A stretch of DNA of 64,000 nt from positions 248,001 to 312,000 of the forward strand of contig NZ_QDDR01000001.1 in the NCBI RefSeq assembly GCF_003075525.1, in the 5' to 3' direction. This DNA is from Pararhodobacter aggregans (GTDB lineage: Bacteria; Pseudomonadota; Alphaproteobacteria; Rhodobacterales; Rhodobacteraceae). Under the pieces are notes generated by a model, which was given only the letters and a program-made list of their open reading frames with translations, had not been told where the DNA came from and ran no database searches. The translations under genes and the position numbers were made by a program. The stretch's first letter is position 1. Each line of letters begins with the position of its first letter. Below, one piece after another: positions 44,172 to 64,000 of the stretch.

Positions 44172-44657
44172 TCACCCCTCGGCGATCAGTTCCTCGCAGC
44201 GCGCTTCCAGCGAGGGCAGGTCGCCCAGCGCCTCGAACACCCGGTTGAGCCCCTCGATCAACGCCTGCATCTCGTCCGGGGCGAAGGCCGCGTTCAGCCG
44301 TTCGGTGACCGCATCGCTCAGCGCCGTGCAGATCCGCGTCACCTCGATCCCGGCCTCGGTCTGCGACACCTCGACCGAGCGGTTGTCCTGATCCGAGCGC
44401 GTGCGCCGGATCAGCCCGCTCTTTTCCATCCGCTTCAGCTGATGCGAGATCGTCGATTGCGGCAGTGCCATCAGCTCGACCAGCTGGCCCACTTTCATCG
44501 GTCCGTTCTGGTCCAGCGCGAACAGGATGCGCGAGCTATAGAGGTCCATGCCATGCGGCGAGATCACCGGCAGGCTGACCTGTTGCAGCCGGGCATTGAT
44601 CCGGTGCGTCAGGAAGGTCACGCGGTTTTCCAGCCGGGGAAGATCGGCATGCGCCAT
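44172..44657 (-). CDS. MarR-family transcriptional regulator of the P450 cluster
   Basis: 161-residue MarR regulator. The winged helix (residues 30-100) includes VISPHGMDLYSSRILFALDQNGPMKVGQLVELMALPQSTISHQLKRMEKSGLIRRTRSDQDNRSVEVSQTEAG, where the wing has the MarR DxRxxxVxLTxxG pattern (DNRSVEVSQTEAG). Start taken at MAHADLPRL with GAGGAG upstream; an ATG 8 codons earlier contains that site and is less likely. It is divergent from the first amidohydrolase gene, across a promoter with two inverted repeats, so it probably represses that promoter and itself until a pathway compound binds (inference). Confidence 0.9.
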   Translation of the reverse strand: MAHADLPRLENRVTFLTHRINARLQQVSLPVISPHGMDLYSSRILFALDQNGPMKVGQLVELMALPQSTISHQLKRMEKSGLIRRTRSDQDNRSVEVSQTEAGIEVTRICTALSDAVTERLNAAFAPDEMQALIEGLNRVFEALGDLPSLEARCEELIAEG

Positions 44658-44731
44658 GGTCTCGTCTCCTCGATCGTTCATCTGCCCGGTCCCTGATCCG
44701 CCCTTGCCATGAAATTCCCTGCTTTCCAAGT

Positions 44732-44778
44732 TTGACAGTATGTATCGAATTCGATTATATTGAAATCGAAATGATTTC
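44732..44778. promoter_or_regulatory. Overlapping divergent promoters with MarR-type operators (site A)
   Basis: On the plus strand TTGACA (44732-44737) and TATATT (44756-44761) are 18 nt apart, giving a transcript start about 29 nt before the amidohydrolase GTG. On the minus strand a perfect TATAAT (44759-44754) faces the MarR gene. The same region holds a perfect 12-bp palindrome ATCGAATTCGAT (44744-44755) and an inverted repeat GAAATC-N5-GATTTC (44762-44778), covering both -10 boxes, as expected for repressor sites. Confidence 0.7.
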
Positions 44779-44796
44779 TGTCCAAGGGGGGAGCCG

Positions 44797-45795
44797 GTGG
44801 CAGGAGCGGGCGAAGCGCGCGTCATCGACGTGCATGCGCATGTCGTGCTGGCCGAGAGTTTCGGTGCGGCCGGCGATCTGGGGCCCGAAATGGGCGGGCA
44901 GGACGGGCCGAAACCCTGGTTCCGGGTCGGCGACTACCGGCTGGACGGGGTGCGCTATCAGGGTAGCCCCTTCATGGACCCGCAGGTGCGGCTGGTGCGG
45001 ATGGATGCGGCCGGGATCGACTTTCAGGTCCTCTCGCCCAACCCGCTGACCTATCTGCATTTCATCGAGCCTGAGGCCGCCCGCGGCTTCTGCCGCACCC
45101 ATAACGACGCGCTGGCCGCGCTGATCGCGCCGCATGGCGACCGGCTGGCGGGCTTCGCCGCGCTGCCGATGCAGGACATCGGCGCCGCGGTCGAGGAATT
45201 GCACCGCGCGGTCGGCGATCTGGGGCTGCTCGGCGGCTATATCGGCACCGACATGCCGCAACCCCTGGACGCGCCCGCGATGGACCGGCTCTACGAGGCC
45301 TCGGTCGCGCTGGACGTGCCGCTCTTCATCCATCCCGGCCCGGCCGGGATCGACGGGCCGAAGGGCGACGCCAACCTCAGGGGCTATGACCTCGACGTGG
45401 TGATCGGCTTCGCCGCGCAGGAGACGCTGGCGGTGGCCCGGCTGATCTTCGGCGGGGTGCTGGACCGGCATCCGGCGCTGGACCTCTGCCTCAGCCATGG
45501 CGGCGGGGCGACTGCCTTTCTGGCCGGCCGCATGGCGCAGGCGATGCGCAAGCGGCCCTGGTCGCCGCCCGAGCTGCGCCATGACGGGGCCTTCGAAGAG
45601 CGCGTGGCGCGGCTCTGGTTCGACAATCACCTGAACAAGGACGCCTCGCTCGACCTCCTGACCGCGATGGTGGGCGACGACCGGCTGGTCTTCGGCACCA
45701 ATTTCGCCGGCTGGGACGCGCCCGAGGATCTGGGCGCCCACCGCCCCGCCCCCAAACTCGCCGACAACGCGCGCAGGCTGCTGCGCATCCGCTGA
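44797..45795 (+). CDS. Amidohydrolase-2 family protein (ACMSD-like)
   Basis: 332-residue metal-dependent hydrolase or decarboxylase of the aminocarboxymuconate-semialdehyde-decarboxylase-like family. Metal ligands: VIDVHAHVVL (residues 9-18, HxH), the histidine in PLFIHPGPAG near 183, DLCLSHGGGAT near 230, and the aspartate/Asn-containing LVFGTNFAGWDAP near 300. The usual last Asp motif (FGTDYP) is changed to FGTNFAGWD, which may alter the metal site. Family members cleave or decarboxylate ring-fission products, so a late step of ring breakdown is plausible. Starts at a GTG with AAGGGGGGAG upstream; first gene of the MarR-controlled unit, 12 bp before the next. Confidence 0.85.
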   Translation: MAGAGEARVIDVHAHVVLAESFGAAGDLGPEMGGQDGPKPWFRVGDYRLDGVRYQGSPFMDPQVRLVRMDAAGIDFQVLSPNPLTYLHFIEPEAARGFCRTHNDALAALIAPHGDRLAGFAALPMQDIGAAVEELHRAVGDLGLLGGYIGTDMPQPLDAPAMDRLYEASVALDVPLFIHPGPAGIDGPKGDANLRGYDLDVVIGFAAQETLAVARLIFGGVLDRHPALDLCLSHGGGATAFLAGRMAQAMRKRPWSPPELRHDGAFEERVARLWFDNHLNKDASLDLLTAMVGDDRLVFGTNFAGWDAPEDLGAHRPAPKLADNARRLLRIR

Positions 45796-45807
45796 CAGGA
45801 GGCTGAC

Positions 45808-47169
45808 ATGACGCAGAGCATCATCACCAACGGGCGCGTGATCGACGGGACCGGCAAACCCGCCTTCATGGGTTCGGTCCTGATCGAGGGGACCAAGATC
45901 ATCGCCGTCGGGGCCGAGGCCGATGCGCAAGCCGCGCCCGACGCGCGGCGCATCGACGCCAGCGGCCAGACGGTCATGCCCGGCCTCATCGACACCCATT
46001 GCCATCTGGCCTTCGACGACGCGGCCTCGAACGCCGAGATCTTCCACCAGCGGCGCAACGCGCTGTCGGCGCTGGTCGCCAGCTACAATGCCCGCAAGCT
46101 GCTGCGCGCGGGCGTCACGGGGATGCTGGACCCCGATTCGACCTTCGAGAACATGATCGACCTGCGCGACGCCATCGAGGCCGGGATCGTCGAGGGACCG
46201 CGCATGTCCTGCGGTTCCTACGCGCTGATTACCGGGGTGGGCGGCACCGCCGGACGGCTGATCGCCGACGAGGGCGTCACGGGCTATTACATGCCGGTCA
46301 ATTCCCGCGACGAGATCGTGCGTGAGGTCCGCCGCCAGATCAAGCACGGCGCCGACTGGATCAAGGTCCATGTCACCGGCATCATCCCGCGTCAGTCGCA
46401 CCGGGGCGAGATGTGCGTCTGGACGCTGGATGAACTGAAGCTGATCTGCGACACGGCGCATGAGCTGATGACCCCGGTCATGGGCCATTGCCGCGGTGCC
46501 GAGGCCACGCGCCGCGCCGCCGTCGCCGGGTTCGACTTCATCTTCCACGGCACCGGCATGGACGAGGCGGCGCTGCGCGAGATCATCGACCGCAAGCTGC
46601 CCATCGCCCCCGCGCTGACCTTCCAGGCGAACATGGTCGACTTCGGCCCGGCGCTGGGCACCTCGGCCGAACTTATCAAGCTTTTCGAGCGCGAGATCAC
46701 CGATTCCATCGAGACGATCACCCTGGCGCACAAGGCGGGGGTGCCGATCCTCACCGGGTCCGAGGCCGGGTTCGCGCTGGTCCCCTATGGCGACTGGCAT
46801 TACCGGGAGATGGAAGTCTTCGTGAAATATTTCGGCATGAGCCCGCTGGAGGCGATCCAATGCGCCACCCAGAAAAGCGCCTTCGGCATCAAGATGCTGG
46901 GCGAGACGGGGGTGATCGCGCCGGGCTACCGGGCGGATGTGATCTGCGTCACCGGCAAGGTCGAGGAAGACCTGACCCTGCTGGGCGACCCCGACAACAT
47001 CACCCGCGTGATGATCGACGGGGTGGAGAAGGACCTGACCCCGCCGCCAAAGCGCAAACCCATTCCGGGCTGGCGGCTGGCCTCGATGGGGGGCAAGCGG
47101 CTGACGCGGGAGGTGGCGTTCGGGCCCAAAGGCGGGCCCGAGCCCCTGCATGTCGAGGAATTGCACTGA
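45808..47169 (+). CDS. Amidohydrolase-1 family protein (imidazolonepropionase/prolidase-like)
   Basis: 453-residue amidohydrolase. TIM-barrel metal sites: MPGLIDTHCHLAFDD near residue 55-68 (HxH), the bridging lysine in ADWIKVHVTG near 193, histidines in MGHCRGAEATRRAA near 228 and DFIFHGTGMDE near 248, and the aspartate site replaced by TGSEAGFALVPYG near 315, where most members have TDA/TDG. The C-terminal small barrel is GVIAPGYRADVICVTGKVEEDLTLLGDPDNITRVMIDG. Substrate unknown. Preceded by AGGAGG and co-transcribed with the ACMSD-like gene; converges with the NIPSNAP gene 3 bp away. Confidence 0.85.
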   Translation: MTQSIITNGRVIDGTGKPAFMGSVLIEGTKIIAVGAEADAQAAPDARRIDASGQTVMPGLIDTHCHLAFDDAASNAEIFHQRRNALSALVASYNARKLLRAGVTGMLDPDSTFENMIDLRDAIEAGIVEGPRMSCGSYALITGVGGTAGRLIADEGVTGYYMPVNSRDEIVREVRRQIKHGADWIKVHVTGIIPRQSHRGEMCVWTLDELKLICDTAHELMTPVMGHCRGAEATRRAAVAGFDFIFHGTGMDEAALREIIDRKLPIAPALTFQANMVDFGPALGTSAELIKLFEREITDSIETITLAHKAGVPILTGSEAGFALVPYGDWHYREMEVFVKYFGMSPLEAIQCATQKSAFGIKMLGETGVIAPGYRADVICVTGKVEEDLTLLGDPDNITRVMIDGVEKDLTPPPKRKPIPGWRLASMGGKRLTREVAFGPKGGPEPLHVEELH

Positions 47170-47172
47170 GCC

Positions 47173-47487
47173 TCAGCCGAGGGGCGAAAAGCCCGTCGGC
47201 AGCAGGATCTTGCTCTCCTGGCTTTCCAGAAGCGGCAGGATCTCGGCCAGAAACGCCCGCCATTCCGGTTCCGCCATCAGCGCCGCCCGTCTGCGGCTGC
47301 GCTCGTCCAGACTGTCGTAGCCCCAGAGGTGGACGGTCTCATTGAGTGGTCCCAGTTCGGTGACGAAATAGCCCAGCAGATTGCCCAGCACCCGCTTTTG
47401 CAGGGCCAGCCCCTTGGCCTCGTAAAGCGCCATGAAGGCGGGGACAGCGCCCGGCTTGAAGCGATAGGTGCGTTGTTCGACGATCAT
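47173..47487 (-). CDS. NIPSNAP-family protein
   Basis: 104-residue ferredoxin-like dimeric alpha-beta barrel protein. IVEQRTYRFKPGAVPAFMALYEAKGLALQKRVLGNLLGYFVTELGPLNETVHLWGYDSLDERSRRRAALMAEPEWRAFLAEILPLLESQESKILLP is the standard NIPSNAP pattern, including the histidine-tryptophan pair (VHLWGY) and ERxxRRAAL. Bacterial members often stand next to degradation genes, but their reaction is unknown. Start at the ATG with GGAGGC upstream. It is 11 bp downstream of the SDR gene on the same strand, so these two form a divergent unit from the VOC gene. Confidence 0.88.
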   Translation of the reverse strand: MIVEQRTYRFKPGAVPAFMALYEAKGLALQKRVLGNLLGYFVTELGPLNETVHLWGYDSLDERSRRRAALMAEPEWRAFLAEILPLLESQESKILLPTGFSPLG

Positions 47488-47498
47488 CCGAGCCTCCC

Positions 47499-48278
47499 TC
47501 AGAACGTGCCGCGGAAGAGCCCGCCGTCGAGCAGCAGGTTCTGTCCGGTGATGTAGCCCGCATGCGCGCTGCACAGGAAGGCGCAGGCCTTGCCGAATTC
47601 GGCGGGATCGCCCAGCCGGGCGGCGGGGACCTGATCCTTCCAGGCCTGTTCCACGGCCGCCATGTCCTTGCCGGTCGAGGAGGCGCTGGCCCGGAACCCC
47701 TCGCGCAGGCGTTCGGTGGCGAAATAGCCGGGCAGGATCTGGTTGATGGTCACGCCCTGATGCGCCACCGTCCGGGCGATGCCGGCCAGAAAGGCGGTCA
47801 GCCCCGCCCGCGCGCCCGAGGACAGGTCGAGCCCCGCCACCGGCATCTTCACCGTGACCGAGGTGATGTTGACGATCCGCCCGAAGCCGCGCGCCGCCAT
47901 GCCGTCGATCACCGATTGAATCAGCTGGATCGGCGCCAGCATGTTCATCGCCACGCCCTGTTCCAGCGCCGCCCGGTCCAGCGACCGGAAATCGCGGAAC
48001 GGCGGCCCGCCGTTGTTGTTGACCAGAATGTCGGGCTCGGGGCAGGCGGCCAGCAGGGCCGCGCGCCCCTCGTCACTGTTGAGGTCGGCGGCGAGCGGGA
48101 TCGCCTCGCCCCCCGTCTGCTGGCGCAGGGCCTTCGCCGCGGCCTCGGTCCCCTCCGCGCTGCGGCCGTTCACCACGACCACGGCGCCCGCGCGCAGCAG
48201 CTCCTCGGCGCAGGCCCGCCCCAGCCCCTTGGTCGAGCCGCAGACAATCGCCCGGCGGCCGGTCAATCCCAGATCCAT
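47499..48278 (-). CDS. Short-chain dehydrogenase/reductase (divergent unit)
   Basis: 259-residue SDR. Cofactor motif VCGSTKGLGRA (Gly-rich, with CGSTKGLG instead of TGxxxGxG) at residues 12-22, NNNGGPP at 87-93 in place of NNAG. The catalytic region has NITSVTVKMPVAGLDLSSGARAGLTAFL, where the usual YxxxK appears as SSGARAG, so the classical Tyr and Lys are absent: this is the atypical SDR subgroup seen in related 3-oxoacyl-ACP reductase-like proteins. C-terminal ITGQNLLLDGGLFRGTF is typical. GGGGGGAAAG lies before the ATG. The promoter is at site B (48332-48360). Confidence 0.87.
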   Translation of the reverse strand: MDLGLTGRRAIVCGSTKGLGRACAEELLRAGAVVVVNGRSAEGTEAAAKALRQQTGGEAIPLAADLNSDEGRAALLAACPEPDILVNNNGGPPFRDFRSLDRAALEQGVAMNMLAPIQLIQSVIDGMAARGFGRIVNITSVTVKMPVAGLDLSSGARAGLTAFLAGIARTVAHQGVTINQILPGYFATERLREGFRASASSTGKDMAAVEQAWKDQVPAARLGDPAEFGKACAFLCSAHAGYITGQNLLLDGGLFRGTF

Positions 48279-48331
48279 CGCTTTCCCCCCTGTCGCGGCG
48301 TCCGAAACGCCGGCCGCCCGCTCTCGACAAA

Positions 48332-48360
48332 ATTATTGCTTTCGAATTAATCGAAATCAA
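48332..48360. promoter_or_regulatory. Promoter with MarR-type operator between SDR and VOC genes (site B)
   Basis: On the minus strand TTGATT (48360-48355) and AATAAT (48337-48332) are exactly 17 nt apart, facing the SDR-NIPSNAP unit. The spacer contains a perfect inverted repeat TTTCGA-ATTAA-TCGAAA (48340-48356). The same TCGAAAT element occurs at site A upstream of the MarR-amidohydrolase pair. The gap (48279-48394) is 116 bp and must also hold the VOC gene promoter. Confidence 0.65.
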
Positions 48361-48394
48361 TACATCATGTCGACGGAAGCAGGGAGGGGCATCC

Positions 48395-48937
48395 ATGAGC
48401 AGGATTTTCGGCGACATCCGGCAGGCGGGCTATGTGGTCAAGGACATCGACGCGCATCTGCGCTTCCTGTCCGACAAGGCGGGGATCGGCCCGTGGTTCG
48501 TGGCCCGCAACGCGGTGCTGCCGGTCTGCCGCTATCGCGGGCGGGAGATCCGCATGGAGATGCATGCGGCGCTGGCCAACAGCGGCACCCATCAGATCGA
48601 GCTGATCCAGCAGGTCAGTCGGGAACCCAGCATCTACACCGAATGGCTGGCACGCTTCCCCGGGCGCAGCCCCCTGCAGCATGTCTCGTCCTGGGAGGAG
48701 GATTTCGACGGCGCCGTCGACCGCGCCCGGGACAAGGGCTGGGTGATGATCCAGGAGGGGCGCTCGGCCTATGGTCCCTTCGCCTATCTCGAACACCCCG
48801 ACGATCCCGATGTGGTGTTCGAGATCACCCGCAAGGGCCCCGAGCGGCGCTCGATCTTCGAGCAGATCGCGGCGGCGGCGGCGGGATGGGACGGCACCGA
48901 TCCGATCCGCGAGGGCTGGCCCAAGGCGCAGGTCTGA
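48395..48937 (+). CDS. VOC-superfamily protein (glyoxalase/methylmalonyl-CoA-epimerase-like)
   Basis: 180-residue protein with two vicinal-oxygen-chelate half-units. IRQAGYVVKDIDAHLRFLSDKAGIGPWFVARNAV opens the first; HQIELIQQVSREPSIYTEWLARFPGRSPLQHVSSWEEDFDGAVDRARDKGWVMIQEG the second, and AYLEHPDDPDVVFEITRKG gives the end with a possible metal glutamate. Candidate ligands are His in TH-QIELI and LQHVSSW and Glu in VFEITR. Family members cleave ring diols, epimerise CoA thioesters or act as isomerases. AGGGAGG precedes the ATG. Divergent from the SDR gene and followed by a 230-bp gap before the P450 operon. Confidence 0.85.
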   Translation: MSRIFGDIRQAGYVVKDIDAHLRFLSDKAGIGPWFVARNAVLPVCRYRGREIRMEMHAALANSGTHQIELIQQVSREPSIYTEWLARFPGRSPLQHVSSWEEDFDGAVDRARDKGWVMIQEGRSAYGPFAYLEHPDDPDVVFEITRKGPERRSIFEQIAAAAAGWDGTDPIREGWPKAQV

Positions 48938-48958
48938 CCCCGCGTTCGGTTTGGTGAG

Positions 48959-49001
48959 GTATCTGTTTTTCAGAAGATACACCTAAGAATATTGAAATTG
49001 A
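48959..49001. promoter_or_regulatory. AT-rich regulatory region before the P450 operon (site C)
   Basis: An inverted repeat GTATCT (48959-48964) / AGATAC (48975-48980) is followed by ATATTGAAATTGA (48989-49001), which matches ATATTGAAATCGA at 44757-44769 (site A) in 12 of 13 bases. This AT-rich patch stands out in the GC-rich gap 48938-49167. A precise promoter is not clear. The rest of the gap is GC-rich and holds the GAGGGAGA ribosome site at 49151-49158. Confidence 0.5.
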
Positions 49002-49167: not shown

Positions 49168-50343
49168 GTGACCGAGCAAGTCATCACCGATTACAAGGAA
49201 ATCACCCGTGTGCTGACGGATCGCTCGATGCGGCAGGCGCTCTATGACGAGGGCGGGGTGGTGATGGACGACGTGCTGCTGACGCTGCACGGGCGCGAGC
49301 ATCACGCGCGGCGGGTTCTGGAGTTCTCGATCCTGCGCAAGGATTACTTCGCCTATTACGAACAGCAGGTCTTTCCGCCCGCCTTGGCGCAGGTCATCGG
49401 CCCCTTGGCCGCGGGCGGGCGCATGGATCTGGTGGATTTCGGCTACCGGGTGACGATGAACCTGACCGCCGATTTCGCCGGAATCGACCGGCCCGAGAAA
49501 TCGGCGGCCGAGACCGAGCGCCTGCTGAAGCTGGTCAAGATCTTCTCCGAAGGCGCGACGCTGGTGCATTCGACCCGCGACAAGGACGAGGTCCGCGCCG
49601 AGGTCCGCGCCGGGCTGGAGGAACTGCGCGAGACCTTCCTCGCCCCGTCGATCGCCCGGCGTCAGGCGGCGCTGGACCGGGGCGATGCAGACCTCCCGCG
49701 CGACGTGCTGACGCTCTTGTTGCGCGACCGGGAAAAGCACGGGCTCTCGGACGCGGTGATCCTGCGCGAGATGGCCTTCTTCCTGCAGGCGGGCTCGCAT
49801 TCCACCGCCAATTCCACGGTCCACGCCCTGCACGAGATCTTCCTGCGCTGGCCGAGTGTCGAGGCCCGCGCGGCGCTGCGTGAAGACCCGCTCTATGTCC
49901 AGCGTTGCGTGCACGAGAGTTTCCGCCTGCACCCGGCCAGCCCCGTCGCCTGGCGCAGGCCCGAGGCGTCCTGCCCGATGTCCGCCGAAGGGCGGGTCGA
50001 GCTGAACTTCGCCGCCGCCAACCGGCAGCGCGACATTTTCGGCGAGACGGCGGATGTTTTCGACCCCGACCGCGCCCCGCCCGAGGGCGTGCCGCGCTGG
50101 GGCCTGACCTTCGGCTTCGGCATGCATATGTGCCTCGGCCGCGATCTGGACGGGGGGCTGACCGCCGGGCCGGATACCGACCCCGCCACGCATCAATACG
50201 GCATCGTCACGCAGCTGGTCCGCACGCTTCTGGCCCGCGACGTCCGCCCCGATCCCGACAACCCGGCGGTGCAGGACACCCGCACGCTGCGGCAGAATTT
50301 CTCGTCCTATCCCGTCCTTCTCAAGACCGAGCCCGCGCAATGA
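49168..50343 (+). CDS. Cytochrome P450 (first of two paralogues)
   Basis: 391-residue soluble bacterial P450 without membrane anchor. I-helix AGSHSTANS near residues 208-216 provides the acid-alcohol-type pair, ESFRLHPASPVAWRRP near 250 is the K-helix ExxR, and the heme loop FGFGMHMCLG puts the thiolate ligand at Cys322. About 20 residues after the Cys (DLDGGLTAGPDTDPATHQYG) form an insertion where ordinary P450s run straight into the L helix; the second P450 shares this. Start at a GTG with GAGGGAGA upstream; a longer frame reaches to 49018, but its first 50 residues look non-coding. First gene of the long operon; substrate unknown. Confidence 0.9.
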   Translation: MTEQVITDYKEITRVLTDRSMRQALYDEGGVVMDDVLLTLHGREHHARRVLEFSILRKDYFAYYEQQVFPPALAQVIGPLAAGGRMDLVDFGYRVTMNLTADFAGIDRPEKSAAETERLLKLVKIFSEGATLVHSTRDKDEVRAEVRAGLEELRETFLAPSIARRQAALDRGDADLPRDVLTLLLRDREKHGLSDAVILREMAFFLQAGSHSTANSTVHALHEIFLRWPSVEARAALREDPLYVQRCVHESFRLHPASPVAWRRPEASCPMSAEGRVELNFAAANRQRDIFGETADVFDPDRAPPEGVPRWGLTFGFGMHMCLGRDLDGGLTAGPDTDPATHQYGIVTQLVRTLLARDVRPDPDNPAVQDTRTLRQNFSSYPVLLKTEPAQ

Positions 50344-51086
50344 GCCAGAAATCCGTCATCATCACCGGCGGGGCCGCGGGCCTCGGCAACGGGATCGCCC
50401 AGAAATTCGCGGCCGAGGGGTTCCGGGTCGGCGTCCTCGACCTCGACCCCGCCGCGACCGAGGCTGCGGCCAAGGCGCTGCCCGATGGCGTGGCGCTCGT
50501 CGCCGACGTGACCGACGAGGCCGCGGTTCAGGCCGCCTTCGACCGCTTCGGCGCGCCCGATGTACTGGTCAACAACGCCGGCATCCTGTCGCTCGGCGCG
50601 CTGATCGACCAGACGCCCGCGCAATTCCGCAAGGTGCTGGACGTGCATGTCATGGGCACTTTCACCTGCGCCGGCATCGCCGCGCGGGCGATGCGCGACG
50701 CGGGCAGGGGCGGCGCCATCGTCAACCTGACCTCGATCAACGCGGTGACGCCCGGGCCGGGCTCGGGCGCCTATCCGGCGGCCAAGGCGGCGATTGCCAA
50801 GCTGACCGAACACATGGCGGTGGAATGGGGCCCGCTCGGCATCCGGGTCAATTGCGTGGCGCCGGGCTTCATCGACGGCGGCATGTCGGCGCCCTTCTAC
50901 GCCGACCCCAAGATCCGCGCCGTGCGCGGCGGGGCGGTGCCCTTCGGCGGGCTCGGCCGGGTCGAGGATATCGCCGAGGCGGTCTGGTATCTCGCCAGCG
51001 ACAAGGCGCGCTATGTCAGCGGCCATCAGCTGGTCGTGGATGGCGCCGTCACCCACAGCCTGCTGCGCGCGCTGCCGAGGGAATGA
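50340..51086 (+). CDS. SDR oxidoreductase after P450-1
   Basis: 248-residue classical SDR. TGGAAGLGNG near residues 9-18 binds NAD(P), with Asp36/Asp38 region LDLDP suggesting NAD(H). NNAG is near 79-82, and the catalytic set is Ser in NLTSIN near 135, Tyr in SGAYPAAKAAI near 148 and Lys near 152. The C-terminal YVSGHQLVVDGAVTHS fits 3-alpha/beta-hydroxysteroid or alcohol dehydrogenase-like SDRs. Overlaps the P450 stop by 4 bp (ATGA), so it probably oxidises the alcohol made by the P450 (inference). Confidence 0.9.
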   Translation: MSQKSVIITGGAAGLGNGIAQKFAAEGFRVGVLDLDPAATEAAAKALPDGVALVADVTDEAAVQAAFDRFGAPDVLVNNAGILSLGALIDQTPAQFRKVLDVHVMGTFTCAGIAARAMRDAGRGGAIVNLTSINAVTPGPGSGAYPAAKAAIAKLTEHMAVEWGPLGIRVNCVAPGFIDGGMSAPFYADPKIRAVRGGAVPFGGLGRVEDIAEAVWYLASDKARYVSGHQLVVDGAVTHSLLRALPRE

Positions 51087-51090
51087 ACGC

Positions 51091-51771
51091 ATGCGGGCCC
51101 TGATCCTCAGCGGTGGCATTTACCACGATTTCGACCGGCTCGGCTCGGCGCTGGCGGGCATCCTGTCGGCGCAGGGCTTCCGCTGCGAGATCGTCACCCA
51201 TCCCGACGCGCTGGCCGCCGCGCTGGCGGAACCGGCCGATCTGGTGGCGGTGCAGGCGCTGCGCTGGCGGATGCTGGGGCACGAGAAATATGAGCCCTTC
51301 CGCGCCGATTGGGCCTATCAGGCGCAGCCCGATCTGATCGCCGCGCTCGAGGGCCATGTCGCCCGGGGCGCCGGGCTTCTGGCGCTGCACACCGGCTGCA
51401 TCTGCTTTGACGACTGGCCCGGCTGGCTGGACCTGCTGGGCGGCGGCTGGGTCTGGGGGCAGAGTTTCCACGCCCCGGATCTGGAGCCGGTGACCGCGAC
51501 GCCGGTGCCGGGCCATCCGGTGACCGAGGGGCTCGCGCCCTTCACCGTGACCGACGAACATTACCGCGCCCTGCGCCTCGACCCCGGGGTGACGGTTCTG
51601 GCCGAAGGCCACAGCCCGGCGGGCGACTTCCCGCTGGCCTGGGCCAAGGGCCGGGCGGTGACGCTGACCACGGGCCATGACCTCGCCTCGCTGACGGAGC
51701 CGGGGCAGGCCGCTTTCATTGCCCGCGCCGCGCGCTGGGCGGCTGGCATGACGGGAGAGACCAGAGCATGA
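51091..51771 (+). CDS. ThuA-like family protein
   Basis: 226-residue protein of the ThuA-like class I glutamine-amidotransferase fold: RALILSGGIYHDFDRLGSALAGILSAQGF, then LVAVQALRWRMLGHEKYEPFRADWAYQ, GAGLLALHTGCICFDDWPGWLDLLGGGWVWGQSFH (nucleophile-elbow-like LALHTG, with a Cys two residues later), and TLTTGHDLASLTEPGQAAFIARAARWA. ThuA takes part in trehalose/palatinose oxidation in Rhizobium; the wider family is of unknown activity. Its presence between SDR genes in a P450 operon is unusual. Overlaps the following SDR by 4 bp. Confidence 0.85.
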   Translation: MRALILSGGIYHDFDRLGSALAGILSAQGFRCEIVTHPDALAAALAEPADLVAVQALRWRMLGHEKYEPFRADWAYQAQPDLIAALEGHVARGAGLLALHTGCICFDDWPGWLDLLGGGWVWGQSFHAPDLEPVTATPVPGHPVTEGLAPFTVTDEHYRALRLDPGVTVLAEGHSPAGDFPLAWAKGRAVTLTTGHDLASLTEPGQAAFIARAARWAAGMTGETRA

Positions 51772-55967: not shown

Positions 55968-57098
55968 ATGCAGATGCACGCCCCCCTCACCGATCCCGCC
56001 ACGATCCTCGCCCGCCCGCTGACGCTGGCCGGGCTGGCGCTGCGCAACCGGCTGGTGATGGCACCGATGACGCGCGAGGCGGCGCCGGATGGCGTGCCCA
56101 CGGCCGAGATGGCCGCCTATTACGCCCGCCGGGCCGAGGGCGGCGCCGGGCTTCTGATCACCGAGGGCGCGGCGCCGAACGAGGAAGGCCGCTTCGGCCG
56201 CGATGTGCCCCGGCTTTACGGGACCGACGCGCTCAAGGGTTGGGAGAGGGTGGTGGCGGGCGTCCATGCGCAGGGGGCTGCGATTGTTGCGCAGGTCTGG
56301 CATGTGGGCGCCTTCACCCCGTCGCTGGTCGGCATGACCGACACGCTGGAGGTCACGCGCCTCGGCCCCTCGGGCCTTGCAGGGCCGGGCCGCGCGCTGG
56401 GCCGGGCGATGACCGGGGCGGAAATCGCCCGCACCATCGCCGATTACGCAAAGGCCGCCCGTGCCGCGCGCGAGGCCGGTTTCGACGGGATCGAGATCCA
56501 CGCCGCGCATGGCTACCTGCCCGACCAGTTCTTCCACGCCGCCACCAACCGGCGCGCGGATGGCTATGGCGGCACCCTCGCCCAACGGGCGCGCTTCGCG
56601 GCGGAACTGGTCATGGCCTGCAAGGAAAAGGCGGGCGCGGATTTCCCGGTGATCCTCAGGATTTCCCAGTGGAAACAACTCGACTACGCCGCCCGCGTCG
56701 CCGAAAGCCCCGAGGAGCTGGCCAGCTGGCTCGCCCCGCTGGTCGCGGCGGGGACGGATGCTTTCCACGTCTCGACCCGGCGCTTCTGGGACCCGGCTTT
56801 CCCGGGAAACGAGACGAGCCTCGCCGCCTTCGTGCGGCGGCTGAGCAACCGGCCGGTGATCGCCGTGGGCTCGCTTCTGATGGACATCGACTTCAAGGCG
56901 GCGCGCGGCAAGCAGCATGCGGCGCTGGCGCCCGCCACGCTGGGCTGGGCCGCCGAGGGGATCGAGCGCGGCGAATTCGACCTCATTGCCAGCGGCCGCG
57001 GCCATCTGGCCAATGCCGATCTGGCGGCACGGATCCTGTCGGGCGGGGCGGCGACGCTCGCCGCCTATGACCGGCGGCATCTGGAGCGGCTGACGTGA
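55968..57098 (+). CDS. NADH:flavin oxidoreductase / Old Yellow Enzyme family
   Basis: 376-residue FMN-dependent ene-reductase type protein. LAGLALRNRLVMAPMTREAA at 19-38, the active-site region EIHAAHGYLPDQFFHAATNRRADGYGGTL near 175-200 with the His and the catalytic Tyr, ILRISQWKQLDY near 228, VIAVGSLLMDIDF near 300 and LIASGRGHLANADLAARI near 340 (FMN phosphate binding). The usual QLWHxG segment reads AQVWHVGAF. It could reduce an unsaturated ketone in the pathway. Last enzyme before the transporter genes; the 64-bp gap after it holds two small hairpins. Confidence 0.9.
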   Translation: MQMHAPLTDPATILARPLTLAGLALRNRLVMAPMTREAAPDGVPTAEMAAYYARRAEGGAGLLITEGAAPNEEGRFGRDVPRLYGTDALKGWERVVAGVHAQGAAIVAQVWHVGAFTPSLVGMTDTLEVTRLGPSGLAGPGRALGRAMTGAEIARTIADYAKAARAAREAGFDGIEIHAAHGYLPDQFFHAATNRRADGYGGTLAQRARFAAELVMACKEKAGADFPVILRISQWKQLDYAARVAESPEELASWLAPLVAAGTDAFHVSTRRFWDPAFPGNETSLAAFVRRLSNRPVIAVGSLLMDIDFKAARGKQHAALAPATLGWAAEGIERGEFDLIASGRGHLANADLAARILSGGAATLAAYDRRHLERLT

Positions 57099-57145: not shown

Positions 57146-57162
57146 GAAAGGGAGGAGACGGC

Positions 57163-58053
57163 ATGCTGCTGCAGCAGCTACTGAACGGCGTTGTCGTGGG
57201 CGGGGTCTACGCGCTTTTCGCGGTGGGCTTCAATCTGGTCTTCGGGGTGCAACGGCTGTTGAACCTTGCGCATGGGGCGGTCTTCATGACCGGCGCCTTC
57301 GTCGCCTATTACACGGTCCGCGCTGGCGGTCCGCTGATCCTGGGCTTTGTCGCCGCGGCCGTGGCCTCGGGCGTGCTGGCCATGATCATCGAGGTGGTCT
57401 GCTTCCGCCGCCTGCGCAAATCGGGGGATGCGGAATTCGGCGCCATCATCTCGTCCATGGGGGCGGGGATGGTCATCATGACCTTCTGGCAATGGGTCTC
57501 GCAGACCCAGGTGCTGCGCTTTCCCTTCGATACCGTGCCGGTGGTGATCTACCGCTTCTGGGGCCTGCGCGTCTCGCTCCTGCAGCTGATGATGGCGGCG
57601 GCGGCCATCGCCATCGTGCTGGTCATGGCCTGGTTCATCTATCGCACCGCCTTCGGCCGTCAGGTCCGCGCGGTGACGGATAGCGAGCGGGCCTCGATGC
57701 TGGTCGGCATCAACCCCAACCGCATCTACAACCTCACCTATTTCATCTCGGGCGCGCTGGCGGGCGCGGCGGGGGTGCTGGTGGGGCTCGCGTTCAACAA
57801 CATCAACTTCACCATGGGCGAGCCCTACCTCATGTTCGGCTTCGCGATCATCATCCTCGGCGGTCTGGGGTCGATCCCGGGCGCGCTGATGGCGAGCCTG
57901 ATCTTCGGCATGGTGCAGACCCTCTCCATCGCCTACCTGCCCTCGGGCCTGACCACCGCCTTCATCTTTTCGGCCATGTTCCTGATCCTGCTGGTCCGCC
58001 CCAACGGGCTGATGGGCCGGGAAGAGGCCGGCAGCCTGCGTGGACGGAGATAA
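57163..58053 (+). CDS. Branched-chain amino acid-type ABC transporter permease (LivH family)
   Basis: 296-residue inner-membrane permease with about eight hydrophobic segments, beginning LLQQLLNGVVVGGVYALFAVGFNLVFGVQRLLNLAHGAVFMTGAFVAYY, the diagnostic LivH N-terminal block. The cytoplasmic coupling loop is TAFGRQVRAVTDSERASMLVGINPNRIYNLTYFISGALAGAAGVLVGL near residues 162-210. C-terminal FIFSAMFLILLVRPNGLMG is typical. The preceding ribosome site is strong. The importer is embedded in the catabolic operon, so its substrate is probably an acid or other polar compound of that pathway rather than leucine (inference). Confidence 0.93.
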   Translation: MLLQQLLNGVVVGGVYALFAVGFNLVFGVQRLLNLAHGAVFMTGAFVAYYTVRAGGPLILGFVAAAVASGVLAMIIEVVCFRRLRKSGDAEFGAIISSMGAGMVIMTFWQWVSQTQVLRFPFDTVPVVIYRFWGLRVSLLQLMMAAAAIAIVLVMAWFIYRTAFGRQVRAVTDSERASMLVGINPNRIYNLTYFISGALAGAAGVLVGLAFNNINFTMGEPYLMFGFAIIILGGLGSIPGALMASLIFGMVQTLSIAYLPSGLTTAFIFSAMFLILLVRPNGLMGREEAGSLRGRR

Positions 58054-58056
58054 GCC

Positions 58057-58941
58057 ATGATGAACCTTCTTCTTGGCTATCAGCCGCTTCTGGACCTGTT
58101 CCTGCTGCATCTCGGCCTTGCCTATGCGCAATGGCTGGTGCTGCGCGCCGGGGTCTTCTCGCTGGGGACGGTGGGGCTGGCCGCGGTCGGCGCCTATACG
58201 GGCGGGATTCTGGTCGTGACCTATGGCCTGCCCGCGCCCTTGGCGCTGATCGCCTCGGCGTTGTCGGGCGGGCTGGTGGCGCTGGCGCTCTCGGTGCCGC
58301 TGGCGCGGCTGCGGGGCATCTATCAGGCCATCGCCACGGTCGCCTTCATCCAGATCGTGCTGTCGCTCAACATCTACGCCACCAATGTCACCGGCGGCGC
58401 GCAGGGCATCACCGGCATCCCCAAGACCGTGGGCACGCCGCTGCTGCTGCTGGCGGGCGCGGCGACCATTTACCTGATGTACGCCATCACCCACAGCCGT
58501 CTGGGCCGGGCCTTCGACGCGATCCGCCAGAACGAGGCCGTGGCCGCCTCGCTCGGCGTCTCCATCGTGCGCCACCAGACGCTGGCCTTCGTGCTCTCGG
58601 GCGCGCTGGCCGGGGTTTACGGCGCGCTCGAGGCCTTCCATTCCTACGCGCTGGTGCCGTCGCAATTCGGCTTCCCCTACCTCATCGCCATCCTGTCCTA
58701 CGTGGTCTTCGGCGGCCGCACGAGCCTCTGGGGTCCGATCGTCGGCACCGCGGTGCTGATCCTCTTGCCCGAGGTGGTGCGCCCGCTGGCGGATGCGCGG
58801 ATGCTGGTTTTCGGGATCCTGCTGATCCTCACCATCAACTTCCTGCCCAAGGGTATCGCCGACACGCTGATCGAGCGCGCCCGGGGCCGGCGGCTGGGCG
58901 CCCGTCGCCCGGCCGAGGCCGATACCGCGAAAGGGAGCTGA
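58057..58941 (+). CDS. Branched-chain amino acid-type ABC transporter permease (LivM family)
   Basis: 294-residue second permease of the importer. Multiple membrane segments, with GVFSLGTVGLAAVGAYTGGILVVTYGLPAPLALIASALSGGLVALALSVPLARLRGIYQAIATVAFIQIVLSLNIYATNVTGGAQGITGIP near 35-120, the LivM signature in which the GGxxGxxxIP loop follows the fifth helix. The coupling loop SRLGRAFDAIRQNEAVAASLGVSIVRHQTLAFVLSGALAGVYGAL is near 150-195. Starts 3 bp after the LivH-like gene and ends 3 bp before the ATPase gene. Confidence 0.93.
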   Translation: MMNLLLGYQPLLDLFLLHLGLAYAQWLVLRAGVFSLGTVGLAAVGAYTGGILVVTYGLPAPLALIASALSGGLVALALSVPLARLRGIYQAIATVAFIQIVLSLNIYATNVTGGAQGITGIPKTVGTPLLLLAGAATIYLMYAITHSRLGRAFDAIRQNEAVAASLGVSIVRHQTLAFVLSGALAGVYGALEAFHSYALVPSQFGFPYLIAILSYVVFGGRTSLWGPIVGTAVLILLPEVVRPLADARMLVFGILLILTINFLPKGIADTLIERARGRRLGARRPAEADTAKGS

Positions 58942-58944
58942 GCC

Positions 58945-59698
58945 ATGGCCCTCATCCTCGACAATCTCAGCAAGCGTTTCGGCGGCGTCGTCGCCTCGGA
59001 AAACGTCAACATCACCGTGCCGAAGGGCAAGATCACCGGGCTGATCGGCCCCAACGGCGCGGGCAAGACCACCATCGTCAACATGATTACCGGCATGCTG
59101 GCGGTGAGCGGCGGCACGATCCGGGTCGATGACACCGACATCACCCGCGCCCCCGCCGATCAGATCTGCCGGGCGGGGCTGGCGCGGACCTTCCAGAACA
59201 TCCGCATCCTGCCGGAGAACTCGGTGCTGGATAACATCCTGATCGGCTTTCACCGGCACGAGCGCTGCTCGACCCTCTCGGCGCTGCTGGGCCTGCCCGC
59301 CTCGCGCAGGGAAACCGCGGCGATGCGCGCCCGGGCCGAGGCGCTGCTGGAACGCTTCGGCATGCGGCATCTGGCGGAATATCCGGCGGGGGGCCTGTCC
59401 TATGGCCACCAGCGGCGGGTCGAGATGATGCGCGCGCTGGCGTCCGAGCCGGAATACATCCTGCTCGACGAGCCCATCGCCGGGATGAACGACGTCGAAT
59501 CCGATGCGCTGGCCGTCCTCTTCCGCGACCTCGCCGACAGCGGCATCGGCATCCTGCTGATCGAACACAACCTGCGCTTCGTCACCCGGCTCTGCCAGCA
59601 TATCTACGTGCTGGACGGCGGGCGCCTCATCGCCGAGGGCGCGCCCGAGGCGGTGCTTTCGGATCCCGCGGTGCTGACCGCCTATGTCGGAGGCGAGC

Positions 59699-59706
<8 letters not shown>
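58945..59706 (+). CDS. ABC transporter ATP-binding protein (LivG family)
   Basis: 253-residue ATPase. Walker A LIGPNGAGKTTIVN near residues 33-46, Q-loop in LARTFQNIRILPENSVLDNILIG, signature motif changed to GLSYGHQRRVEMMRAL near 152, Walker B YILLDEPIAGMNDVE near 173, switch His in LLIEHNLRFV near 203. The canonical LSGGQ/LSYGxQRR form and C-terminal GAPEAVLSDPAVLTAYVG mark it as LivG. Overlaps the LivF-like gene by 8 bp. Confidence 0.94.
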
Positions 59707-60412
<706 letters not shown>

Positions 60413-60452
60413 CGCCCGAGCATCGCAACCCACGTCATACAGGGAGGACAGG

Positions 60453-61577
60453 ATGACGAAGGTTTCCAGACTGACAATGAGGGCGCTCCTGGGCGCCACG
60501 CTTCTCGCCGGACCCGCCGCGGCGGACGAGGTGAACATCGCCGCGATCCTGTCGACGACCGGCACCTATGCCTTCGTCGGCGTGCCGCTGGTCAACGGCA
60601 TCCGCATGGCGGACGAGGAACTGGCGGCCGCGGGCGGCTATGGCGATCACACCGTCGCCATCCAGTACGACGACAACCGCTCGGACCGGCAGGAGGCGAT
60701 CTCGCTGCTGACCCGGCGTGCCAACGTCGATCAGTCCGACCTGATCCTCGGCCCGATCGCCTCGTCCGAGGCGATGGCGACCGGTCCTGTTGCGGTCCAG
60801 TTGCAGGTGCCGATGTTCACCGTGGCGATGACTTCCGAGGTGCTGCCGCTGGGCGAATGGATCTTCAAATCGACCGAAACCGCCGTCACCTACATGCCGC
60901 CCCTCGCCAATTACATCGGCGAGACGCTGCACCCGGCGAATTGCTATCTGGTCTCGATCCTCGATAACCCGGGCTACATCATCCAGAAGGACGTGTTCCG
61001 CGACACGCTCGCCTCGCACGGGGTCGAAATCATCGCCGACGAGGGGATCCTCGCCTCGGACACCGACTTCACGGCGCTGTCGACAAAGATCGTCGATGCG
61101 GACCCCGAGTGCCTCTTTGTCACCACCCCGCCCGAACAGGCCGCCAACATCATCCTGCAGGCGCGGCAGGCGGGCCTCGACCCCGACACGATCATCGCGG
61201 GCGACACCGGCCTCGGCTCGTCGCAATTCATCAACGCTGCCGGGTCGGCGGGGGAGGGGACGCTCTTCGTCTCGATCTTCTCCGAGGATTATTCGGACGC
61301 GACCCGCGCCTTCGCCGAGCGCTATCAGGCCCGCTACGGCATCCCGCCCGACCATTGGGCGGCGACCGGCTATTCGATGATGTCGATCATCGCCGCGGCG
61401 ATCAGCAGCATCGAGGGCGAGGTCACGCGCGAGACCCTGCGCGAGGCGATGACCCAGACCCATGACGTGCCGGTGCTGATGGGCACGGGCTCCATGACCT
61501 TCGGCGAGGGCCGGGTGCCGGTGCATGGCAGCGTCGTCATGCGCGTGCGCGATGGCGGCTGGGAAGTGGTCCAGTAA
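60453..61577 (+). CDS. Periplasmic substrate-binding protein of the Liv-type importer
   Basis: 374-residue type I periplasmic binding protein. The N-terminal 24 residues are a signal peptide (KVSRLTMRALLGATLLAGPAAADE, cleavage after the AAA region). The mature part starts VNIAAILSTTGTYAFVGVPLVNGIRMADEELAAAGG, the usual LivK/aromatic-acid-binding opening, followed by DLILGPIASSEAMATGPVAVQLQVPMF and the hinge and second lobe to the end. Ligands of this family range from branched-chain amino acids to benzoates and ring acids. The gene is coupled to transporter and catabolic genes, so the ligand is probably the pathway substrate or an acid derived from it. GGGAGGA precedes the ATG. Confidence 0.93.
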   Translation: MTKVSRLTMRALLGATLLAGPAAADEVNIAAILSTTGTYAFVGVPLVNGIRMADEELAAAGGYGDHTVAIQYDDNRSDRQEAISLLTRRANVDQSDLILGPIASSEAMATGPVAVQLQVPMFTVAMTSEVLPLGEWIFKSTETAVTYMPPLANYIGETLHPANCYLVSILDNPGYIIQKDVFRDTLASHGVEIIADEGILASDTDFTALSTKIVDADPECLFVTTPPEQAANIILQARQAGLDPDTIIAGDTGLGSSQFINAAGSAGEGTLFVSIFSEDYSDATRAFAERYQARYGIPPDHWAATGYSMMSIIAAAISSIEGEVTRETLREAMTQTHDVPVLMGTGSMTFGEGRVPVHGSVVMRVRDGGWEVVQ

Positions 61578-61579
61578 CC

Positions 61580-63064
61580 ATGGCCGGGGTTTCCGGCACC
61601 AAGGCACCGGGCGACAAGCCCGGTGCCGATCTCTCCTGCGACGTGCTGGTGGTGGGGACGGGGCCGGGCGGCATGGCCGCCACCGCCGCCGCGGCCGCCA
61701 CCGGGGCGTCTGTCCATGTCATCGAGGCGCTGGACGCCATTGGCGGCAATGCCGTCTGGTCCACCGGCTACATGGCCTTCGTCGGGTCCCGCGCTCAGAT
61801 TGAGGCGGGGATCCGGGACAGCGCCGAGGCTTTCCTGGCGGATGCCGAACACAGCATTTCCCTGCTTGGCGACCGCTACCCGATGATTGCCGATCCGGCA
61901 CTGATGCGGCTCTTCGCCGAACACAGCGCCGCCACCTATGACGATCTGATCGCCCGGGGCGTGCGCTTTTCCCGCTTCATCCCGCGCCCCCTTCAGCACC
62001 GCACCGACCGGATGCTGGCGGTCGAGGACATGATGGCCTTCCGCCGCGCCTTCGCCCCTGATTTCGCCCGGCCGAACGTGACGCTGCACCTGAACACCAG
62101 CGCCCGGCGGCTGGTGACCGAAGGGGGCCGCGTGACGGGCCTGATCGCCGAGGATGCCACCGGCCAGACCCGCCGCTGGCAGGCCCGCAAGGGGGTGGTG
62201 CTGGCCACCGGCGGCTTTCAGGCGAACCCGGAACTGCGCGCCCGCCATGTGCCCGGCTATCTGGCCCGCGCGCCCTATCTCGGCGTCGATACCTGCCGGG
62301 GCGACGGGCACCTGATGGCCGGCGCAGTGGGGGCCGACCTCATCAACATGGCGCAGGTTCTGCCCCTGGTGATCGTCTCGTCCTCCCTGGTCGAGGATTG
62401 CATCGCCGTCACCCGCGAGGGCCGCCGCTTCCATGACGAGGCCGGTCCCTACGAGCGCCGGGTCGAGGCCTTGCAGGCCCAGCCGGGACGCGAGGCCTGG
62501 TACATCATCGACGACGAGACCCTGCGCCGCAAAGGGCAGCTGGTGGCGCAGATGCCGCGCCCGGGTGTCTCGGCCCCGGATCTGGCGACGCTGGCTTCGC
62601 GGATCGGGGTGGATCCCGCGGGGCTTGCCGCATCGGTCGCCGGCTGGAACGCCTTCCTTGCCGGGACCGGGGCAAAGGACCCCGATTTCGGCCGGGTCAT
62701 CCTGCCCGAAGGCCGCCGCCCCATCGCAAAGGGGCCGTTCCACGCCCTGCCCATGGTCGTGGGCTCAAACTTCGTGGCGGGCGGCCTCAGGGTCACCGCG
62801 GCGATGCAGGCGGTCGATGTGTTCGGCGCGGCGATCCCCGGGCTTTACGCGGCGGGCGACGCGGTGGGCGGGCTGAACCCGACGGCGGAACTGGGCGGCA
62901 TGCGGCTTTGCGGTGGCTTCACGCTGGGCCGGATCGCGGGCCATGCCGCAGCGCTGGGCCTGAGCGCCCCGGTCGAGGGGCCGCGTCTGCAAGGCGCCCA
63001 TTTGCCGAGCATGGTCGGCACCAGGGTCGCCCTGCAGGACATCCCCGGTGACGGGTCTCAGTAA
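61580..63064 (+). CDS. FAD-dependent dehydrogenase, fumarate reductase/KstD-like (second)
   Basis: 494-residue flavoprotein, second of the type in the operon. FAD-binding DVLVVGTGPGGMAATAAAAATGASVHVIEALDAIGGNAVWSTGYMAF at 20-66, the internal VVLATGGFQANPELRARHVPGYLARAPYLGVDTCRGDGHLMAGAVGADL, and the C-terminal GLYAAGDAVGGLNPTAELGGMRLCGGFTLGRIAG. Compared with the first, the middle domain is different, suggesting another substrate. It begins 2 bp after the binding-protein gene and is the last plus-strand gene; the PDR reductase converges 9 bp away. Confidence 0.87.
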   Translation: MAGVSGTKAPGDKPGADLSCDVLVVGTGPGGMAATAAAAATGASVHVIEALDAIGGNAVWSTGYMAFVGSRAQIEAGIRDSAEAFLADAEHSISLLGDRYPMIADPALMRLFAEHSAATYDDLIARGVRFSRFIPRPLQHRTDRMLAVEDMMAFRRAFAPDFARPNVTLHLNTSARRLVTEGGRVTGLIAEDATGQTRRWQARKGVVLATGGFQANPELRARHVPGYLARAPYLGVDTCRGDGHLMAGAVGADLINMAQVLPLVIVSSSLVEDCIAVTREGRRFHDEAGPYERRVEALQAQPGREAWYIIDDETLRRKGQLVAQMPRPGVSAPDLATLASRIGVDPAGLAASVAGWNAFLAGTGAKDPDFGRVILPEGRRPIAKGPFHALPMVVGSNFVAGGLRVTAAMQAVDVFGAAIPGLYAAGDAVGGLNPTAELGGMRLCGGFTLGRIAGHAAALGLSAPVEGPRLQGAHLPSMVGTRVALQDIPGDGSQ

Positions 63065-63073
63065 TCGGGGCTC

Positions 63074-64000
63074 TCAGTAATCCGGCTCGATCACCAGCCG
63101 TGCCCCCAGCGCGCGCGACGAACAGGGCATGAAGCAATCGTTGCGCGCGCGCTCGGCTGCGGTCAGGAACTGGTCGCGATGGTCGGGCGCGCCGTCGATG
63201 ACCCGGGTCATGCACATGCCGCAGACCCCCTCGGTGCAGGAATTGGGCACGTCGAGCCCCGCCGCCAGCAGCGCGTCCAGCGCCGTCTGGCCCTTGGCGA
63301 CCGTCACCACCTGCCCGCTGCCCGCCACCTCGATCTCGAAGGCGCAATCGCTGTCGCGCTGCTCGACAGTGCCGGAGAAATATTCGGTATGCACCGCTTC
63401 CTCGGGCCAGCCCGCCGCCAGAGCCGCGCCCTTCACCCAGTCCAGAAACCCCGAGGGTCCGCAGATGTAGACGTGATCCCCGGCCCCCCGCGCCGCCAGC
63501 AGGGCAGCCAAGGGCAGGCGCTGCGCCTCTGGCCCGTCATCCAGATGCAGATGCACCCGGTCGCGGAAGGGTGCTGCCGCCAGCCGCCCGGCAAAGGCCA
63601 TCCGCGCAGCCGACCGGGCGCAGTAATGCAGGGCGAAGGACGCGCCCTCGGCCGCCAGCGCCTCGGCCATGGCCAGGATCGGCGTCACCCCGATCCCGCC
63701 CGCGATCAGCAGCGAATGCCCGGCGCCGGGGGCCAGCTCGAAATGGTTCTTCGGCGGGCCGATCAGCAGCCGGTCACCGGTCGCCACCCGCTCGTGCAGA
63801 TGTTGCGATCCCCCGCGCGATGCCGGTTCGAGCAGGACCGCGATCTGGTAGCGATGCGTCTCGCCCGGCGCGTTGCAGAGCGAATATTGCCGGGCGGGCA
63901 GGCCGGGCAGCATCACGTCGATATGGGCGCCTGCCGTGAAGGCAGGCAGCGCGCCGCCGGTGACCGGCACCAGGTCGAAGCCCAGAATCCCCTCGGCCTC
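63074..64000 (-). CDS. PDR/VanB-type oxidoreductase (FMN + NAD + [2Fe-2S]), partial
   Basis: Phthalate-dioxygenase-reductase-type electron-transfer protein; the N-terminus is beyond the right edge. In-window part: flavin domain AHIDVMLPGLPARQYSLCNAP (RxYS flavin loop as RQYS), NAD domain LLIAGGIGVTPILAMAEAL and YICGPSGFLDWV, and a C-terminal plant-type [2Fe-2S] domain with cysteines in NSCTEGVCGMCMTRV (C-x4-C-x2-C) and DCFMPCSSRA. Such reductases pass NAD(P)H electrons to Rieske oxygenases, O-demethylases or P450s. Being next to the two-P450 operon, it is a candidate redox partner for them, but the unseen genes to the right may encode the real partner. Confidence 0.9.
   Translation of the reverse strand, partial: EAEGILGFDLVPVTGGALPAFTAGAHIDVMLPGLPARQYSLCNAPGETHRYQIAVLLEPASRGGSQHLHERVATGDRLLIGPPKNHFELAPGAGHSLLIAGGIGVTPILAMAEALAAEGASFALHYCARSAARMAFAGRLAAAPFRDRVHLHLDDGPEAQRLPLAALLAARGAGDHVYICGPSGFLDWVKGAALAAGWPEEAVHTEYFSGTVEQRDSDCAFEIEVAGSGQVVTVAKGQTALDALLAAGLDVPNSCTEGVCGMCMTRVIDGAPDHRDQFLTAAERARNDCFMPCSSRALGARLVIEPDY

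Follow-up and report, generated by a model that had tools for sequence, protein, structure and literature searches.

Here we report a gene cluster centred on two related cytochromes P450 (P450A and P450B, 38% identical) and short-chain dehydrogenases/reductases (SDRs) in Pararhodobacter aggregans. The sequence analysed, hereafter the window, comprises 64,000 nt of contig NZ_QDDR01000001.1 (positions 248,001-312,000; assembly GCF_003075525.1) of a 5.08 Mb genome. It harbours a real, conserved and most likely catabolic P450-based cluster with unusual, uniform enzyme features, to which no pathway is assigned. The literature searched held no described pathway with this gene set; most subscription papers lay outside its scope, hence this is no proof. 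The initial annotation, made from the letters of the window, had likewise recognised no known pathway.

Gene content and organization

About 20 genes are present at the cluster (Table 1). Gene families in the window were called by Pfam cut-offs, and subfamilies and equivalogs by NCBIfam cut-offs. Each family named in the initial annotation, the four SDRs included, was recovered above its Pfam cut-off, and the tight packing with overlapping or near-touching genes was equally evident: 14 genes lie on the same strand from P450A (49168) to FAD2 (63064), with intergenic gaps of -23 to +64 bases. SDR1 and the NIPSNAP gene are oriented opposite to this run. The reading frames of SDR1 and SDR2 were set by codon-position composition and Pfam; the opposite-strand open reading frames (ORFs) at 47562-48350 (+) and 50307-51119 (-) had no Pfam match. 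The 2Fe-2S domain of the reductase is its sole domain over a Pfam cut-off.

Table 1. Genes and candidate regulatory sites of the cluster and its upstream neighbours in the window
Feature	Position	Strand	Evidence
pcaI, pcaJ, pcaF (beta-ketoadipate)	41390..44047	+	pcaI and pcaF over NCBIfam cut-offs; pcaJ = CoA-transferase between them, by position
MarR-family regulator	44172..44825 as listed ORF; by eye, probably starts near 44681	-	PF01047 3.8e-14
Candidate MarR operator, related site (MarR/AH2 gap)	44743..44771		5 mismatches to palindrome consensus
AH2, Amidohydro_2, ACMSD-like	44797..45795	+	PF04909 2.9e-31; ACMSD chains 1.4e-35
AH1, Amidohydro_1, Xaa-Pro-dipeptidase/ochratoxinase branch	45808..47169	+	PF01979 2.1e-28; 3mtw 1.9e-34
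NIPSNAP protein	47173..47487 (listed ORF to 47574)	-	PF07978 6.3e-31
SDR1	47499..48278	-	PF13561 2.9e-38
Candidate MarR operator (SDR1/VOC gap)	48334..48362		29-bp palindrome
VOC/glyoxalase-like protein (Glyoxalase_4)	48395..48937	+	PF13669 2.9e-16
P450A	49168..50343 (listed ORF from 49018)	+	Pfam P450 over cut-off
SDR2	50340..51086	+	PF13561 2e-56
ThuA-like protein, class I glutamine-amidotransferase fold	51091..51771	+	Pfam ThuA over cut-off
SDR3	51768..52529	+	PF13561 3.2e-53
P450B	52542..53741	+	PF00067 7.7e-20
FAD1, KstD/fumarate-reductase-like flavoprotein	53745..55226	+	PF00890 1.2e-34; NCBIfam far under cut-offs
SDR4	55223..55966	+	PF13561 8e-60
Old Yellow Enzyme (OYE)	55968..57098	+	PF00724 1.7e-63
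LivH-LivM-LivG-LivF-LivK importer	57163..61577; binding protein from about 60456	+	PF02653 x2, PF00005 x2, PF13458
FAD2, fumarate/urocanate-reductase-like flavoprotein	61580..63064	+	PF00890 2.8e-51
Reductase, C-terminal 2Fe-2S domain, possible P450 electron donor	63074..64039 (past window end 64000)	-	PF00111 8.1e-15; ORF L009:1075-2040

Conservation across bacteria

Genome contigs of a collection of 84,980 species were scanned with a P450A alignment, and the best 80 of 93 relatives were kept; the two best organisms among 35 plasmid records (Novosphingobium sp. THN1 and Streptantibioticus cattleyicolor) were added. Since these 82 loci were fetched via P450A, the presence of a P450 is given by construction, which is not the case for the linkage of the remaining genes. 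Contig or locus ends truncate many of the loci. L028 and L058 are the same contig, as are L052 and G140, the latter added for the P450 alignment below, and L030 is near-identical to the window. According to record taxonomy, they comprise 24 Alpha-, 14 Gamma- and 13 Betaproteobacteria, 1 other member of the Pseudomonadota, 22 Actinomycetota, 1 locus labelled Myxococcota and 7 without label.

A core of two related P450s, SDR2, ThuA, SDR3, AH1 and AH2 was found in Alpha-, Beta- and Gammaproteobacteria and in Actinomycetota. SDR2 was present in 72 of the 82 loci, ThuA in 65, SDR3 in 58, AH1 in 55 and AH2 in 40; the numbers for the other genes were 26 (LivH), 25 (SDR1), 14 (MarR homologue), 8 (OYE), 6 (FAD1) and 4 (FAD2). 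P450-SDR2-ThuA-SDR3 was contiguous and co-directional in 44 loci, which bears out the proposal of a coherent, probably co-expressed catabolic cluster centred on P450s and SDRs, and the contiguous order AH1-P450-P450-SDR2-ThuA-SDR3 was found in 16. Because the same genes are grouped in distantly related bacteria, their clustering is more than chance. One plasmid locus (L111, pSCAT) showed the P450 and no other cluster gene.

Among the 43 loci that span 18.5 kb or more, 35 carried at least two P450s, 41 SDR2, 38 ThuA, 33 SDR3, 33 AH1 and 25 AH2, and all seven genes were present in 15. FAD1 (5 loci), FAD2 (3), OYE (5) and LivH (16) are undercounted because several loci stop before the place of FAD2. 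Desaturase, ene-reductase and importer, which the initial annotation had included in the pathway, are lineage options and, being optional, cannot define its common chemistry.

These counts bear on a route resembling the aerobic cyclohexanecarboxylate (Chc) pathway, which has a non-CoA entry and employs a P450, an SDR and two desaturases, via 4-hydroxybenzoate. In such a route, the P450s and SDRs would produce a ring ketone, FAD1 and FAD2 would aromatise it, and the product would enter the neighbouring beta-ketoadipate genes. The cluster likewise has P450 and SDR genes and two KstD/fumarate-reductase-like desaturase families; the NCBIfam models of ChcC1, ChcC2 and ChcB1/B2 identify FAD1, FAD2 and SDR4 as members of related families, and the pca genes adjoin the cluster. 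However, all scores remained far below the equivalog cut-offs (ChcC1, 112/89.5 vs 1000; ChcC2, 83.9/72.4 vs 900; ChcB1, 161.4 vs 400), FAD1 and FAD2 are present in just 5 and 3, respectively, of the 43 long loci, and the pca neighbours were found only in the window and in L030, whose P450A is 98% identical. The cluster also differs by its second P450, the two amidohydrolases, ThuA and OYE; to our knowledge, the Chc pathway requires neither amidohydrolases nor ThuA. The NCBIfam cut-offs exclude the cyclohexanecarboxylate pathway itself, to which the cluster may bear a partial functional likeness, and we consider a route of this type improbable. A steroid-related KstD role for FAD1 was rejected (165.3 vs an NCBIfam equivalog cut-off of 789; NF009478).

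A search of 295 genomes from the family detected P450B relatives with scores above 90 bits only in the genome of the window and in four others, with two such P450s each; the next match scored 50 bits. AH1 was located near the P450s in three of these four genomes (76-81% identity), and the MarR, SDR2, ThuA, SDR3 and Liv genes also recur in this set, in which some contigs are cut. With ThuA as bait, a search of 385 genomes from the class recovered 10 (E<=1e-30), and the P450 pair was carried by the genome of the window and by five of the other nine. Four of these five are genomes of 1.3-1.4 Mb with the pair, by coordinates, within about 4 kb of ThuA; in G519, pair and ThuA are on separate contigs. 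The cluster is rare in a sample of the phylum, where the ThuA subfamily (E<=1e-25) was detected in 1 of 398 genomes, that of the window itself. As a separate observation, four genomes of 1.3-1.4 Mb (G342, G466, G561 and G637) contain 9 to 13 P450 matches each, some of them split genes, which is dense for small genomes.

The other four of the ten genomes recovered with ThuA (G415, G518, G570 and G647, from two families) have SDR2-ThuA and gave no match to the twin P450 family at E<=1e-30 in a search limited to that family. In their four stretches (L122, L123, L125 and L126), a cupin of about 190 residues lies beside SDR2-ThuA; it was identified by eye (HDHG...E and a later His), had no match in Pfam or NCBIfam and was found in no other stretch searched. 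AH2 is nearby in three of them (L123, L125 and L126), and the fourth is cut by a contig end. The cupin stretches also contain TauD (4/4), a TIM-barrel gene (3/4) and FAH (L122). As SDR2-ThuA is kept beside a cupin in place of the twin P450s, it looks like a unit, mostly accompanied by AH2, that is able to work with different oxygenases.

Enzyme features

The 82 loci, the window and G140 yielded 146 members of the P450 family, of which 145 were long enough to be aligned (141 distinct sequences; 121 groups at 95%). A quick maximum-likelihood tree with midpoint rooting separated a side A (87 sequences) from a side B (58 sequences) with an SH-aLRT value of 99. One P450 of each side was present in 44 loci, two of side A in 15, two of side B in 2 and a single P450 in 23. 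The 15 loci with two side-A P450s, all actinobacterial by title, are the result of a later duplication.

The twins have the Cys loop, the ExxR motif and the overall fold of the P450 superfamily, and the columns of the heme Cys and of Glu and Arg in ExxR are intact in all 145 sequences. Instead of the canonical acid-alcohol pair of the I-helix, all 145 lack the acid, which is replaced by His (100), Phe (32), Gln (11) or Leu (2), and retain the alcohol (77 Thr, 68 Ser). Control P450s came from the window's own genome, from other genomes of the family and from the small genomes, with several close relatives among them; 25 loci were given, one (L024) was dropped because it had no usable ORF, and Asp or Glu was present at this site in 23 of 24. 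The twin P450s are a distinct family that uniformly lacks the I-helix acid. This acid helps to deliver protons to the heme-bound peroxide, and where it is missing, peroxo-type chemistry can be favoured. Given the missing acid, plain hydroxylation by these enzymes appears possible but is not safe to assume.

In the structural model of P450A (pLDDT 92.9), the start matches residues 30-49 of solved P450s, and the L-helix after the Cys loop is broken (residues 330-345). Its fold matches to P450BioI, StaP, the CypX orthologue and CalO2 are nearly tied and thus carry no information on the substrate. The fold alignment with the CypX (CYP134A1) type has an identity of 18%. In P450B, CypX ranks first among the solved matches. 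TIGR04538 (cyclodipeptide-associated P450) scores highest of the NCBIfam models for P450A and P450B alike, with 58.3 and 43.5 bits against a cut-off of 500. P450A and ThuA had no match in PHROGs.

The nearest solved relatives of AH2 are ACMSD decarboxylases (aligned to 4igm over residues 59-303). AH2 shares the HxH motif and two further His with these amidohydrolase-2 decarboxylases but differs at the beta-8 Asp of the GTD motif, where all 38 readable rows have Asn (1 row is gapped) and an Asp five residues later. AH1 is closest to solved peptidase-like and amide-cleaving amidohydrolases. Its HxH, Lys and two further His, which by analogy we take to be the metal site, are conserved in 52 of 52 sequences at each of the five positions, and its beta-8 Asp is replaced by Glu in 51 and retained in 1. 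ThuA has a confident fold match to ThuA-like proteins, from which it differs by an identity of only about 20% and a restricted distribution (the 10 class genomes above), and a remoter one to class I glutamine amidotransferases; no function can be deduced from the fold. Residues invariant in 29 ThuA rows include H12, H100, H127, D155, E156 and H196.

The relatives of AH1 raise the question of a nitrogen-containing ring substrate, such as a cyclic amide, a diketopiperazine, a mycosporine-type enaminone or an N-heterocycle, of which AH1 and AH2 would hydrolyse C-N bonds after oxidation by the P450s and, elsewhere, by a molybdenum hydroxylase. The large subunit of such a hydroxylase was found near the core in 22 of 82 loci (a 53% relative is encoded on another contig of the window's genome), the binding protein of the importer is of the amino-acid/amide type, and the matches of the twins to CypX and TIGR04538 point in the same direction. 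A precedent for a route with P450, hydrolases and xanthine oxidase is the catabolism of lumichrome by the lum cluster of Nocardioides simplex, in which the P450 acts first and hydrolases follow, together with xanthine-oxidase-type and Rieske enzymes (PMC12746152). Rieske oxygenase genes also occur near the core in 8 of 82 loci, four of them at merely 29-33% identity. As far as its main text describes it, the lumichrome pathway is the nearest described logic with a different gene list: it comprises one P450 instead of a conserved pair, and a TPP decarboxylase and Rieske and catechol dioxygenases, with the decarboxylase and the catechol dioxygenase outside the core families found here; the terms "ThuA" and "short-chain" have 0 occurrences in that text, and the comparison was made by gene list (PMC12746152). 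Moreover, the matches that favour a nitrogen-containing ring are all weak or generic, and the core contains no recognisable gene for handling ammonia; such a substrate has a small chance of being the right one.

A modifying or biosynthetic rather than degradative cluster must also be considered, as natural-product pathways too hold twin P450s, SDRs and OYE. However, synthases, ligases and assembly enzymes are absent from the cluster genes, which do include an importer and a MarR regulator, and among solved structures AH1 and AH2 are most closely related to hydrolases and decarboxylases. We consider this reading very unlikely.

Candidate operators

Two candidate MarR operators are located in divergent intergenic gaps of the cluster: a 29-bp palindrome, TATTGCTTTCGA-N5-TCGAAATCAATA, between SDR1 and the VOC gene, and a related site between MarR and AH2 (Table 1). 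A scan of 14 sequences yielded 17 matches with <=8 mismatches; in a null restricted to 20 block-shuffled windows, none reached this limit (best, 9 mismatches). By their coordinates, the matches with <=7 mismatches in L046, L050, L051, L058 and L030 (the last not independent) fall within gaps that precede cluster genes. The weaker matches are mixed, one being inside pcaF (L030:4606) and another 3' of P450B (L050:1121), and 6 of the 14 sequences (L009, L031-L034 and L056) had no match. Judged by consensus matches only, the palindromes are compatible with control of several blocks by MarR.

Proposed pathway

We consider it fairly probable that the cluster encodes a MarR-controlled, O2-dependent and CoA-independent pathway for the peripheral catabolism of a common cyclic natural product. 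From the chemistry of the enzyme families we infer the following order. The Liv importer would take up the substrate as a free compound and not as a CoA ester, and its oxidation by the two P450s would concern two positions or proceed in two steps, perhaps with electrons from the reductase. SDR2 and SDR3 would convert alcohols to carbonyls; in the variant of the window, FAD1 and FAD2 would dehydrogenate beside the carbonyl and OYE would act on the enone. AH1 and AH2 would then act on the activated skeleton, either by hydrolytic cleavage of C-N or C-C bonds or by decarboxylation, and central metabolism would receive the fragments, perhaps through the adjacent pca genes. A soluble acidic substrate, as suggested in the initial annotation, is indicated by the importer type alone. 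CoA ligase, thiolase and acyl-CoA dehydrogenase were all absent from the recurrent core families, among which unannotated ones were judged by eye.

Several observations weigh against this pathway. None of the 82 loci yielded the reductase, although the loci of the closest relatives stop short of its position, and the pca neighbours were seen only in two near-identical loci. By eye, an acyl-CoA-dehydrogenase-like ORF was seen near L041 and an enoyl-CoA-hydratase-like ORF near L089, L092 and L094, so a later CoA stage is possible. The half-site of the palindrome alone was no rarer than chance (3 matches, equalled by 12 of 100 shuffles). Finally, given the altered beta-8 Asp, the reaction of the amidohydrolases may differ from classical hydrolysis.

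A more daring proposal takes up the missing acid of the P450s. Rather than plain hydroxylation by what would be an ancient P450 pair, a longer-lived ferric-peroxo species would attack a carbonyl, and the twins and the SDRs would cut C-C bonds stepwise and pass the fragments to AH1 and AH2 with re-tuned metal sites. The substrate would be an abundant metabolite, and SDR2-ThuA-AH2 would form a back end that accepts either the P450 pair or a cupin dioxygenase as its front end. We regard this as unlikely.

For the peripheral pathway proposed above, the distribution of the core is informative, as it spans genomes of 1.3-1.4 Mb, betaproteobacteria and actinobacteria, and many record titles suggest aquatic sources; a substrate common to such varied bacteria is probably abundant. 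The cluster offers a P450 family that lacks a residue of textbook-central importance and has the same partners throughout, with a natural variant lacking the twins as control. Because cultured carriers exist, e.g. Zhengella mangrovi (L051), Pseudohaliea rubra (L068) and Novosphingobium sp. THN1 (L110), both substrate and chemistry are directly testable.

Neighbouring genes

The pca genes directly upstream of the cluster are accompanied by an IclR regulator (40575-44047). An ORF adjoining the core at L108:13464-15191 resembles, by eye, a carotenoid cleavage oxygenase. Further upstream in the window, a run of capsid- and tail-like ORFs (18008-29571) resembles, by eye, a Rhodobacterales gene transfer agent.

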